From positions 2,025,183 through 2,089,182 of the forward strand of contig NW_020194512.1 in assembly GCF_002865645.1 (NCBI RefSeq): DNA of 64,000 nucleotides. Reading direction: 5' to 3'. This stretch comes from Hyaloscypha bicolor E. Its lineage: Eukaryota; Ascomycota; Leotiomycetes; Helotiales; Hyaloscyphaceae. Within the stretch, counting starts at the first letter, position 1, and the number at the start of each line of letters is the position of its first letter. Shown one piece after another: positions 58,092 through 62,635 of this stretch. Made by a program: the position numbers and the translations under genes. A model generated the notes under the pieces. It saw only the letters and a list, made by a program, of their open reading frames with translations. It searched no databases and was not told where the DNA came from.

Positions 58092-61000
58092 ATGACTTCA
58101 CGTCCTGAATTAAAGGTATCTCCATTTCAATGGACTCCCCAATTCAACGCCACACTAACTCTTTCCAGGTCGACGATGAGGGTGGATTCATCAAATTCTT
58201 CAAATCACTACCCGATAATGGAGAGGATACAGTGAGGATCTTTGATCGGGGAGACTTCTATACTGCTCACGGGGACAGTGCATCATTCATTGCCCGAACG
58301 GTAATATATTCTTTCTGCCCCCAAAAGAAGTGAACTGACAAGTCTTATAGATCTATAAAACGACTTCCGTCCTGCGACAATTAGGCAAGCATGACTCCAC
58401 CGGTCTCCCCTCAGTTACCATGTCCACCACTGTCTTCAGAAACTTTCTTCGAGAAGCTCTCTTCCGTCTTGGCAAGAGAATCGAGGTTTGGGAGAACACG
58501 GGTCGAACTAATTGGAAAATCACAAAGCAAGCCTCACCCGGGAATCTGCAGGATATTGAAGAGGAACTGGGGGGACAATTTGATGCTGCTCCAATCATAC
58601 TGGCTGTCAAAGTCTCGGCAAAAGCTTCGGAGGCCAGAAACGTTGGTGTTTGCTTCGCAGATGCCAGTGTTCGAGAATTGGGAGTGTCGGAATTTCTGGA
58701 CAACGATCTGTATTCGAATTTCGAATCGCTTCTAATTCAGCTCGGGGTGAAAGAATGCCTCATCCAGGTCGACAAGTCAGAAAAGGATGTGGAGATGGCT
58801 AAGCTCAAGGCGATTGTCGATAATTGCGGAATTGCTATATCAGAGCGGCCTGGAACCGATTTCGGCACTAAGGATATCGATCAAGACTTGGCGAGACTTC
58901 TGAAGGACGAAAAGGCTGCCGGTACTCTTCCACAGACAGATCTCAAGCTTGCAATGGGATCAGCGGCCGCTTTGATCAAGTATCTTGGAGCATTGCACAA
59001 TCCTTCGAATTTCGGTCAATACCAGCTTTATCAGCATGATCTGTCACAGTTCATGAAGCTAGATGCATCGGCATTAAAGGCCTTGAACCTCATGCCTGGG
59101 CCCCGAGATGGCGCCAAGACAATGTCAGTGTACGGATTACTAAATCACTGCAAGACCCCAGTAGGAAGTCGGTTGCTTGCACAATGGCTGAAGCAACCGC
59201 TGATGAGCAAAACGGAGATCGAGAAAAGGCAGCAACTCGTCGAGGCATTTGTCGAGGACACCGAATTACGCCAAACAATGCAAGAGTCACATCTTCGATC
59301 AATTCCCGACCTGTATAGGTTGGCCAAGAGATTTCAACGGAAACTGGCAACTCTTGAAGATGTGGTTAGAGCTTGGCAAGTGGTTATCGCACTACCAGGC
59401 TTTATTGGTACTCTCGAGGGCGTTATGGACGAACAGTATCGCGATCCACTGGATGAAGCGTACACATCGAAGCTTCGGGAGTACTCTGAGAGTCTTGATA
59501 AGCTAGCAGAAATGGTTGAAACCACGGTGGACCTTGCTGCTGCTGAAAATCATGACTACATCATCAAGCCCGAGTTTGACGAAGGCCTGCGAATAATCAG
59601 GAAGAAACTCGACAAGTTAAGGCATGAGTTGGATCAAGAGCACCGCGCTGCTAGTCTGGACCTTTCGCAGGAGATGGACAAAAAGCTGTTCCTCGAGAAC
59701 CACAAAGTCCATGGCTGGTGCATGCGTCTTACGAGGAACGAAGCGTCTTGCATTCGGAACAACAAGAAATACCAGGAATGCTCCACACAAAAGAATGGTG
59801 TTTACTTCACAACTCAGAAGTTGCAAAGCATCCGACGAGAGTTTGATCAGCTATCCGAGAACTACAACCGGACCCAGAAGAGCTTGGTCAACGAGGTCGT
59901 CAGTGTTGCCGCTTCATACTGCCCAGTCATAGAACTGTTAGCCGGCGTGCTTGCTCATATGGATGTTATTGTGAGCTTTGCACATTCTTCCGTCCATGCA
60001 CCTACATCCTATGTCAGACCCAAGATGCATCCCCGTGGTGAGGGTGACACCATCTTGAAGGAGGCCCGGCACCCTTGTATGGAGATGCAGGACGACATTC
60101 AATTCATCACCAACGATGTTACTCTCAGACGTGGAGGTTAGTAAATGTTTTCTATTGATGTTCGACCCCTGGTCCGCCCCCGCCTGAAGGTTTGTGAGAT
60201 GCAAGAGCACCTGGGCCATGCTCCTTCCGCAGCCATGGATTCTTCTTCTGCAGCCATGGATTCTCCTTCCGTCTGCGCATCGAGGACAGACTTCCTCAAA
60301 CAACTCCTGTCTGCAACTTCATTCGTCTTTGCTCCTGGCCTCTTGGACGTCCTCCAATCGTCTACTCTGCCTGCGATCACTTTCTTCAAAAGCCTCCCTA
60401 CCGACCATAAGAAAGTGTGGGGAGTATATCTCCTTGTGCTTGAGAAACGGGACCCCCGATCAAAGATATATATCGGCTCAGGTACTTCTGTTACTGGTGG
60501 TGTGTCCTCTCGTCTTTGCCAGTACGACAAGCAGCAACTTCTGCTTAGAGACGTTAAGAATCATGGCTCTCGACGCCAAGTCCCTCCCTCAGCTCATGAT
60601 GCTGCTTCTCTGGAGATGTCTCAACATGTTTGCTGTAAACTATAAGCACTCATTCTTTGTCAAAATCCTCTCGAGCGAGGACTTCCTCGAGGAACTCCTG
60701 TCTGCAACTTCATTGGTCTTTGCTCCTGGTCTCTTGGACATCCTCCAATCGTCTGCTCCGCCAACTATCGCTTTCTTCAAAAGCCTCCCTACCGACTGTG
60801 AGAATGTGTGGGGAGTATATCTCCTTGTGCTTGAGAAACGGGACTCCCGATCGAAGATTTATATCGGCTCAGGTACTTCTGTTGCTGGTGGTGTGTCCTC
60901 TCGTCTTATCCAATACGACAAGAAGCAACTTCTGCCCAAATACGTCGCACCCGCTCTCGATGAAGGATATACTATCACTCACAAGGGCCTTCTATGCTCT

Positions 61001-62635
61001 GCACCCATCCCTTCTGCTGGCAAAGTACCAATTACACGGCTGTTCTTCGTTGCATTAGAAGCTGTCTTCACATTTGTCTTCTGGGCTCTTAACTGCAAGA
61101 CTAAACATGGGTTTGGCTTTGCGGATCTGTGCCCCTGGGATCGAGATACGCTTGAATATGGCGGTTTATGCTCCCACAACCCCATGTCCGAGAATATTAG
61201 AGGAGACTTGGGCCTTTCAGCTGAGCAATTGGAGACTATGGCAGCAGAATACGCTATAAAGCGGGCGGGAGACAAACGCAAGAGAAGAGCCGATGCAAAG
61301 GAGAAGGACCCTGAAGCTTTCAATGCCAAAAACAACCAGGACAGGAGGGATTGGTATTACCAGAACAAAGAGTCCTGCAGAGAAGCAGAACGAAGACTTG
61401 CAGCCAAGGATGTCAAGGCGAAGAAGTACTACTGTGAAGTCTGCGATCATGCCTGTCGGACCAGCAAGGACTTGCGTGCTCACAACTCCACCGAGAGGCA
61501 TCTTCACTATGTCGCCACTCAGCACTTACCAGAGGACCAAAAGTACTCTTGCGAGCTCTGCGATTGCAATCCTGGCAGCTGTCACGCTTTGAAGAGACAC
61601 AAGGCTAGCAAGATGCATCTCAAGAATGTTGCCCTTCAGCACTTACCAGAGGGCCAAAAGTACTCTTGCGAGCTCTGCGGTCGCAATCCTGGCAGCTCCT
61701 ACGCTTTGAAGAGACACAAGGCTGGCAAGAAGCATCTCAAGAAAGCTGCTGCTGCTGCTGCTCAGCAGCACTAGCATCACCAGGCCACGCTTTTTGGAGG
61801 TTTTTTGGTCCATATCACTAACTATTTCAAAGGTTTATCGTTGATTACAGGAGCGAATATGGGCGGCAAGAGTACTTACATTCGGCAAATCGGTGTCATA
61901 GCACTGATGGCTCAGATCGGTTGCTTCGTTCCTTGTTCAGAAGCCGAATTGACCATTTTTGACTGCATCCTTGCTCGAGTCGGTGCCAGCGATTCGCAGC
62001 TGAAGGGCGTCTCGACCTTCATGGCCGAAATGCTCGAAACGGCTAACATTCTCAAATCTGCTACCTCGGAATCTCTCATCATCATCGACGAGCTTGGTCG
62101 CGGTACTAGTACTTATGATGGATTTGGACTTGCCTGGGCAATTTCAGAACACATCATCAAGGAGATCGGCTGTTTCTCCATGTTCGCCACCCATTTCCAC
62201 GAGCTCACTGCCTTGGTAGACCAGTACTCTCAAGTGCAGAACCTGCATGTCGTGGCACACATCGATGACAACGGAAAGGGTAAGAGAGAGGTTACACTTC
62301 TTTACAAGGTGGAAGAAGGAGTCTGCGATCAGAGTTTCGGTATTCATGTTGCGGAGCTTGTGAGGTTTCCTGAAAAAGTGGTTAGTATGGCGAAGAGGAA
62401 GGCGGACGAGTTGGAAGATTTCACCAGTAAGCACGATGGACATGCGATCCAATATGGGAAGGAAGATGTGGAGGTAGGAAGTGCGATGTTAAAGGATGTT
62501 CTGGTGAAATGGAAAGAAGCTTGTGACGGCAAGGACTTTAGTAGGCAGGAGATGGTGAGTAGGTTGAGGGAGCTGGTAAAGGGGGATGAGAAACTCCTTG
62601 CGAATCCCTTCTTCCAGAGTGTGAAAGGTCTATGA
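58092..62635 (+). CDS. MSH2: MutS homologue Msh2 (interrupted by an ORF-bearing intron)
   Basis: Msh2 is the common partner of Msh6 and Msh3 in eukaryotic mismatch recognition. Exons 58092-58115, 58169-58300, 58351-60136 and 61833-62635 sum to 2,745 nt, exactly 915 codons, with no internal stop (914 residues; the family is about 930-960). Domains I to IV are in order: [11 protein letters not shown], then LRQLGKHD, the connector, the lever and clamp ([20 protein letters not shown]), then the ATPase domain. The last intron is 1,696 bp and falls just before Walker A ([15 protein letters not shown]). The Walker [29 protein letters not shown] and the C-terminal helices follow. At the junction, RRGGLSLITG is about two residues shorter than I expect for fungal Msh2. 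Confidence 0.93.
60145..60645 (+). CDS. Truncated upstream GIY-YIG copy (166 residues)
   Basis: The ATG lies directly after TAG TAA and is in the same frame as MSH2 exon 3. After a leader with an imperfect repeat ([14 protein letters not shown]) it repeats the GIY-YIG module of the downstream ORF, with [25 protein letters not shown] and [10 protein letters not shown]. It then loses similarity and stops before the Arg/His/Glu part and the zinc fingers. It aligns to the second copy without indels over about 250 bp at an offset of 391 bp. It may be a decayed duplicate, a small regulatory ORF or an exon; the sequence does not decide. Its own activity is doubtful because the GIY-YIG core appears incomplete. 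Confidence 0.5.
   Translation: MFSIDVRPLVRPRLKVCEMQEHLGHAPSAAMDSSSAAMDSPSVCASRTDFLKQLLSATSFVFAPGLLDVLQSSTLPAITFFKSLPTDHKKVWGVYLLVLEKRDPRSKIYIGSGTSVTGGVSSRLCQYDKQQLLLRDVKNHGSRRQVPPSAHDAASLEMSQHVCCKL
60281..60947 (+). repeat. 391-bp-offset repeat of the GIY-YIG module
   Basis: Bases about 60281-60556 and 60672-60947 align at a fixed offset of 391 with few mismatches and no indel at the points I checked (CTTCCTC at 60291/60682, CTCCTG at 60304/60695, GGTACTTCTG at 60481/60872). The two copies lie in different reading frames, since 391 is not a multiple of 3. Confidence 0.85.
60563..61774 (+). CDS. GIY-YIG nuclease-like protein with three C2H2 zinc fingers
   Basis: The frame is open from 60194, but the best start is the ATG at 60563 ([10 protein letters not shown]), giving 403 residues. 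The GIY-YIG core is seen: [23 protein letters not shown] (GVY, 13 residues, YIG), then [11 protein letters not shown] with the catalytic-type Arg, [14 protein letters not shown] with a His, and [15 protein letters not shown] with the probable metal-binding Glu. A basic linker ([17 protein letters not shown]) follows. The C-terminus has three U1/jaz-type fingers, each C-x2-C-x12-H-x5-H (CEVC.., then two near-identical CELC.. repeats), and a short Ala/Gln tail. Such fingers could supply DNA or RNA binding, as the modules of intron-encoded GIY-YIG enzymes do. The nuclease fold is confident; homing activity is inference. Confidence 0.75.
   Translation: MALDAKSLPQLMMLLLWRCLNMFAVNYKHSFFVKILSSEDFLEELLSATSLVFAPGLLDILQSSAPPTIAFFKSLPTDCENVWGVYLLVLEKRDSRSKIYIGSGTSVAGGVSSRLIQYDKKQLLPKYVAPALDEGYTITHKGLLCSAPIPSAGKVPITRLFFVALEAVFTFVFWALNCKTKHGFGFADLCPWDRDTLEYGGLCSHNPMSENIRGDLGLSAEQLETMAAEYAIKRAGDKRKRRADAKEKDPEAFNAKNNQDRRDWYYQNKESCREAERRLAAKDVKAKKYYCEVCDHACRTSKDLRAHNSTERHLHYVATQHLPEDQKYSCELCDCNPGSCHALKRHKASKMHLKNVALQHLPEGQKYSCELCGRNPGSSYALKRHKAGKKHLKKAAAAAAQQH

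Follow-up and report, generated by a model that had tools for sequence, protein, structure and literature searches.

Structure of the MSH2 locus

The window analysed here, 64,000 nucleotides (nt) of Hyaloscypha bicolor E (contig NW_020194512.1 of assembly GCF_002865645.1, positions 2,025,183 to 2,089,182 of the forward strand), contains the mismatch-repair gene MSH2, which is interrupted by a long intron carrying an open reading frame (ORF) for a predicted GIY-YIG nuclease with a tail of C2H2 zinc fingers (Table 1). When 60137-61832 is taken out, four exons join into a frame of 914 codons, a 300-residue segment of which, spanning the junction, aligns with human MSH2, and a CTAAC branch-point match precedes the acceptor AG. 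Both features had been proposed in an original prediction made from the letters alone, as had an insert coding for a GIY-YIG core and three C2H2 fingers; all were recovered on reanalysis, the last through its motif residues and finger array, and the proposed homing-endonuclease-like gene within a spliceosomal-type intron is supported. In the unspliced MSH2 frame, tandem stops (TAG TAA) are followed immediately by an ATG at 60145 (window 60137-60147), at which translation might conceivably re-initiate.

Table 1. Coordinates of the MSH2 gene, its element intron and features within the intron (window positions).
Feature	Position	Strand	Remarks
MSH2 (914 aa)	58092..62635	+	exons 58092-58115, 58169-58300, 58351-60136, 61833-62635
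Element intron, 1696 nt	60137..61832	+	GTTAGT...AG, phase 1, directly 5' of Walker A codons
Partial copy of ORF first half, upstream	60280..60554	+	88% identical to 60671-60945
Intact ORF, 403 aa, predicted GIY-YIG nuclease with C2H2 tail	60563..61774	+	model pLDDT (predicted local distance difference test) 93.7
GIY-YIG domain, residues 81-212	60803..61198	+	
GVY (84-86) ... YIG (100-102) motif	60812..60868	+	Y86, Y100, G102 each conserved in 155/157 database proteins
E166	61058..61060	+	conserved in 153/157 database proteins
Three C2H2 fingers, residues 291-313, 330-352, 369-391	61433..61735	+	zf-C2H2_jaz above its cut-off
117-nt tandem repeat, 2 copies 84% identical	61481..61714	+	inside finger array
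CTTTTTGGA	61790..61798	+	also in 3' noncoding ends of GRS1, DED1, SF3B1 element introns
Branch-point motif CTAAC and 3' splice site AG	61818..61832	+	sequence reading

The 403 open codons of the ORF (60563-61774) have a chance probability of about 9e-9. All nuclease residues checked are present (GVY84-86, YIG100-102, R114, Y118 and E166), each retained in 151-155 of the 157 database proteins, and E166 is likely the metal-binding catalytic glutamate, its presumed counterpart being E75 of I-TevI. The predicted structure matches the GIY-YIG fold. In a viral fold library the top matches were C2H2 proteins, with a Klosneuvirus GIY-YIG protein sixth (expectation value, E, 0.017), and the alignment-A1 sequence profile returned, among the matches listed from the PDB (60 rows), zinc-finger proteins only. 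We infer that the ORF belongs to the GIY-YIG endonuclease superfamily and that its product has nuclease activity. The partial ORF copy upstream is apparently a relic: its nonsynonymous and synonymous divergences from the ORF (dN 0.12, dS 0.14) indicate no clear constraint, and a functional gene was rejected on this comparison.

A family of element introns in conserved genes

The genome (82 Mb, 76 contigs) was searched at two levels. At the DNA level the MSH2 element matched itself alone, a single copy in 82 Mb; at the protein level, 13 family matches were obtained at ten loci. Exact introns, read from 10-kb flanks, were obtained for nine of these, all GT-AG introns with the ORF in sense with the host gene, in MSH2 (1696 nt), ACO1 (1882 nt), VMA1 (1904 nt), ATP1 (1699 nt), GCN1 (1545 nt), SF3B1 (1380 nt), DED1 (1291 nt), CHC1 (1069 nt) and GRS1 (1139 nt); the branch motif is CTAAC in seven and CTAAT in two. 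Four elements (MSH2, ACO1, VMA1 and ATP1) have no stop in the matched frame and carry all checked nuclease residues, and the other five (GCN1, SF3B1, GRS1, DED1 and CHC1) contain stops or frame changes or survive only as pieces, a mixture expected from a homing cycle in which elements invade, decay and are lost. A cycle of degeneration of homing elements is cited in a study of yeast elements (PMC7282813). The tenth locus (L023; C16, about 210998-211351, minus strand) is a degraded fragment containing stops (E 4e-5 to 9e-10, depending on the query). One other weak genome match was to the finger part of the database protein P0169 (E 8.7e-4).

Once joined, the ACO1, VMA1, ATP1, DED1, CHC1, GRS1 and GCN1-type HEAT proteins were identified by Pfam, and MSH2, SF3B1 and CHC1 by solved structures. 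The best structure chain for GCN1 is a 2898-residue Chaetomium protein in an entry labelled ‘Ribosomal protein L19’; this host is presumably GCN1, on Pfam and general knowledge. All nine joined frames read as intact host proteins, and those of SF3B1, GCN1 and CHC1 are gap-free over the junction. A copy-number search took in five of the nine hosts (MSH2, GRS1, VMA1, SF3B1 and ATP1) and found each to be single copy, the next matches being 28% identical for VMA1, 34% for ATP1 and, in the search with the MSH2 host piece, 33-49% for other MutS-type proteins; the gene must therefore be spliced to work. Single-copy hosts and restored frames together point to removal of the element introns from mRNA.

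Other intron and intervening-sequence classes were considered. No Rfam family reached its gathering threshold in eight element loci (L015-L022), group I and group II introns being rejected on this result, and at E<=1 the MSH2 element intron had only two unrelated sub-threshold families (E 0.11 and 0.27). An intein was rejected in all nine cases since the host frame runs into a stop beyond the intron start, no more than 1 codon in for MSH2 and 1 to 133 codons in across the nine.

MSH2 is one of nine hosts, and the special link to mismatch repair and mutation rate suggested by the original prediction is unsupported: aconitase, V-ATPase, F1-ATPase, GCN1, SF3B1, glycyl-tRNA synthetase, DED1 and clathrin are unrelated to mutation rate, and no evidence for a mutation-rate role of the element was found. 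The P-loop itself, named in that prediction as the target, is a putative recognition sequence.

Insertion sites

The insertion sites coincide with conserved protein motifs: they fall ahead of Walker A in MSH2, inside ACGP|C in aconitase, SIYT|G in VMA1 and PFT|G in ATP1, and ahead of the GCDLLVATPGR segment in DED1; a preference of parasitic introns and inteins for conserved protein parts is reportedly the topic of a published study. Inspection by eye showed no common DNA motif where the nine elements are inserted. In VMA1 and ATP1 of this genome the introns interrupt a homologous codon (T|G, phase 1), and in Alternaria, Pyrenodesmia and Pseudocercospora the ATP2 elements lie at, or a few residues from, the same place (TG|LT), a site at which ATP2 of this genome is uninterrupted. 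This common position is read here as one target that would be recognised in three related genes. Between VMA1, ATP1 and ATP2, 30-32 of 52 flanking bases agree, about the level expected from homologous proteins. Separately, the carbamoyl-phosphate synthase models P0122 and P0123 have elements at two different positions, and aconitase at several; some hosts thus offer more than one target.

Relatives in other fungi

Searches of protein databases, as the original prediction had proposed, recovered relatives annotated inside the same kinds of gene in other Pezizomycotina. The first search gave 250 relatives at E<=0.001 (best 120 of 250 listed). A second, with a long query of which only the nuclease part was scored, to catch gene models that fuse element and host, gave 39 proteins, 29 with a host domain or name and ten without. 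Among the 29, the host is aconitase in eight, carbamoyl-phosphate synthase in eight, pyruvate carboxylase in three, ATP1 and HSP70 in two each, and clathrin, PMT1, DED1, VMA1, ATP2 and EF-1alpha in one each. A third, with a VMA1-type query, gave 39 proteins, including fusions with ATP1, ATP2 and VMA1. Carriers that were looked up span five classes: Leotiomycetes, Dothideomycetes, Sordariomycetes, Lecanoromycetes and Eurotiomycetes. No relative was confirmed among the 33 pattern matches in IMG/VR contigs or the 7 in GTDB genomes, each scanned once with a few patterns from alignment A1, which leaves absence unproven; a virus or bacterial origin was set aside with this same limit.

Splice points in the relatives are approximate because the models are annotators’ predictions. 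To within a few residues, the same site is occupied in other genera in ACO1 (P0092, P0121, P0124 and P0139), DED1 (P0146), VMA1 (P0152) and ATP1 (P0154 and P0156); five further aconitase proteins break at about 247, 263, 272, 276 and 290 of the reference, vs. 452 here. The last residues of P0001 (97% identical), SLTISKVYR, run through the 3' splice site of the MSH2 intron into the MSH2 exon, and the N-terminus of P0002 is a diverged copy of the first codons of this intron, so that at least one further assembly, and probably a second, has an element at the MSH2 site.

Two further observations concern these proteins. In P0002 the frame is open from the matching methionine through nuclease and fingers. 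Compared with window 60629-61774, P0001 is identical over 277 residues of the nuclease part, then has 7 differences in the first two fingers and shifts frame inside the second, placing the variation, in this single comparison, in the DNA-binding tail.

Phylogeny of the elements

The phylogeny comprised 44 rows, namely the nine elements of this genome and 35 of the 157 database proteins, picked for a known host or for nearness to MSH2; CPA2, PYC and HSP70 were grouped by host label rather than exact site. The elements cluster according to host gene rather than genome: at minimum, 20 changes of host group were needed, against a mean of 32.2 for shuffled labels (0 of 200 shuffles as low), and six of the eight host groups with at least two rows were confined to one side of a branch, the HSP70, MSH2, DED1 and VMA1 groups being well-supported single groups. 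By comparison, the nine elements of this genome need nine changes, with no two as sisters (random labels, 8.4), and a single clade of the nine was rejected (approximately unbiased test, p-AU 1.7e-51); scattered as by chance, they have thus not multiplied within this genome. The ATP1, VMA1, ATP2 and EF-1alpha elements formed one clade (100/99), and a clade of the three ATPases alone was not rejected (p-AU 0.48).

Intron ends and ORF-less introns

In their noncoding ends, 5' and 3' alike, the nine introns have more words of 8, 9 and 10 letters in common than was seen in any of 200 dinucleotide shuffles. This sharing is supporting evidence only for movement of the element intron as a unit, because the MSH2 tail window includes coding sequence and repeats of the CTGGA type contribute. 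On the reverse strand of the VMA1 locus (L016, 5665-5756), the element is followed by an exon of 6 nt (GAATAA) and then by an ORF-less intron of 86 nt, the first 41 nt of which align to the element 5' end and the next part to the 3' end (0 of 500 shuffles each). This short intron resembles an element of which only a plain intron is left. At the ATP1 locus (L017, reverse strand from 5498), a short intron 25 nt behind the element opens with GTAAGATACTCCTCC, the same 15 starting bases as in the ORF-less VMA1 intron.

Proposed mobility and its alternatives

From the anatomy, family, host genes, common sites and clustering by host observed in these sequences, the MSH2 insert probably belongs to a Pezizomycotina family of nuclear spliceosomal homing introns. 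What moves would be the entire GT-AG intron, taken out of host mRNA by the spliceosome, by which its insertion into an essential gene would be tolerated. The intron would encode its own GIY-YIG endonuclease with a C2H2 tail; once this protein is made, its fingers would bind and its GIY-YIG domain would cut an intron-less allele at the corresponding conserved coding position, which would then be filled as the break is repaired with the intron-bearing copy as template. Copies would afterwards decay, be lost or be replaced.

Several points weigh against this interpretation. Splicing, nuclease activity with target cleavage, and homing are steps that we infer from sequence. The Pfam GIY-YIG family (PF01541) matches neither the MSH2-element protein nor the genome, a match to it being a detection tool rather than a defining trait of the superfamily, and the Foldseek E-value is 1.1. 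At the junction the joined MSH2 is two residues short of human MSH2, and the frame is thus not restored there to human length; its Walker A reads GANMGGKS, not GPNMGGKS, and both features may have arisen through alteration of the flank when the intron was inserted. In the phylogeny, the CPA2 (69/81) and ATP1 (67/29) groups are weakly supported, and the ACO1-site and PYC elements are not single groups, needing two changes each. The flanks of L023 show no recognised conserved host gene. Additionally, the same-site DED1, VMA1 and ATP1 pairs lie mostly within Leotiomycetes-type genera, and an old insertion followed by vertical descent and loss could account for them.

Such vertical descent is the main rival, in which former homing introns, now immobile, were inserted in ancient times and then inherited with their hosts under slow decay. 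It would suit the five decayed copies of nine and the apparently close genera from which the relatives P0146, P0152 and P0154 mostly come (Lachnellula belongs to Helotiales); however, four intact ORFs keep all checked nuclease residues, relatives with intact ORFs survive in five classes, an outcome inconsistent with long neutral decay, and finger sequence differs between two otherwise identical alleles, and the rival is on balance rather improbable. It is very unlikely that the ORF is a nested host gene or part of a regulatory intron that serves the fungus, e.g., by controlling host output via intron retention: although the sense orientation in nine of nine introns and the tandem in-frame stops right before an ATG at the start of the MSH2 intron could be taken this way, the nine hosts are unrelated, five copies are decayed, and hosts are patchy across species, with no one conserved location.

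A conventional transposon or dispersed repeat that lies in introns by chance deserves scarcely any credence. The ten dispersed genome loci would be expected of it, but there is one DNA-level copy, there are no inverted repeats in 59900-62100, nine of the ten protein-level loci are in conserved-gene introns at defined codons, the same codon positions recur in other genera, and the phylogeny follows host rather than genome; a random transposon was rejected on these grounds, as was the common repeat at random sites that the original prediction had contemplated. Equally far-fetched is the explanation that the hosts are broken alleles or assembly artefacts with unspliced inserts, for which the element introns, at 1.1-1.9 kb vs. 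52-86 nt for neighbouring introns, do seem long for a filamentous fungus, whereas none of five tested hosts has a second copy, the nine joined frames are intact, same-site elements occur in independent assemblies, and SF3B1 and GRS1 are essential genes.

A wider proposal can be offered tentatively, as one that could prove right but about which doubt slightly prevails: that nuclear spliceosomal homing introns are widespread selfish elements of filamentous ascomycetes, target conserved housekeeping codons, cross between target-sharing paralogues (VMA1, ATP1 and ATP2), re-target via finger change, and leave short plain introns after loss of the nuclease gene, and so are a source of new introns.

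Comparison with known mobile elements

The closest parallels are the spliceosomal homing introns (‘shintrons’) of mirusviruses, an association that its authors call previously unobserved. As described in that report (PMC12768974), shintrons likewise contain endonuclease genes, 132 GIY-YIG among them, in introns with spliceosomal donor and acceptor and no group I or II features, prefer particular host genes and are proposed to home. They differ in residing in virion genes of large viruses rather than chromosomal housekeeping genes of a cellular organism; the C2H2 tail is a further difference, and no IMG/VR relative was found with the patterns tried. Within the open-licence literature (preprints and subscription papers apart), no account of homing nucleases in cellular spliceosomal introns was found, ‘shintron’ in this sense occurred only in PMC12768974, and no text joined homing endonuclease, spliceosomal intron and aconitase. 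Within the same literature, what is new relative to shintrons is a cellular, fungal, C2H2-tailed family in housekeeping genes.

The WHO/HO elements of yeasts also home in the nucleus, at the conserved metabolic gene FBA1, with an endonuclease fused to zinc fingers and clusters that include decayed copies, and cleavage of the target by WHO elements has been demonstrated (PMC7282813). In that account, however, the endonuclease is intein-related and the element lies downstream of the host gene, replaces its 3' end, is intron-free and needs no splicing (PMC7282813); with a GIY-YIG fold inside an intron, the present family was not assigned to this group.

Three other systems invite comparison. The VDE/PI-SceI intein is a parasitic homing gene in the V-ATPase gene VMA1 of yeast, a gene also occupied here (L016), but lies in the host frame and is removed by protein splicing, whereas the unit here is an intron whose ORF stands behind stops and out of the host frame. 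I-TevI and other group I GIY-YIG enzymes share the catalytic fold, motif residues and modular DNA-binding tail; they occupy self-splicing introns of phages and mitochondria, whereas the present introns are nuclear and spliceosomal-type and their product too diverged for PF01541. A mitochondrial homing element has reportedly been found inserted in the nucleus. Introners are mobile units that are themselves spliceosomal introns, but their copies multiply across many genes, whereas here there is one DNA-level copy, nuclease-coding and of a lineage tied to one host site; membership was rejected on the single DNA-level match.

Significance

To our knowledge, spliceosomal introns of cellular organisms are not thought of as carriers of genes, still less of homing nucleases. 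With such a family in the chromosomes of culturable fungi, the idea of spliceosomal homing introns would become testable. If the interpretation is correct, the family would amount to a natural gene drive acting on nuclear protein-coding genes and supply a set of nucleases with modular zinc-finger tails aimed at conserved genes; and if decayed copies do become plain introns, they would provide a concrete route of intron gain, a long-standing question.

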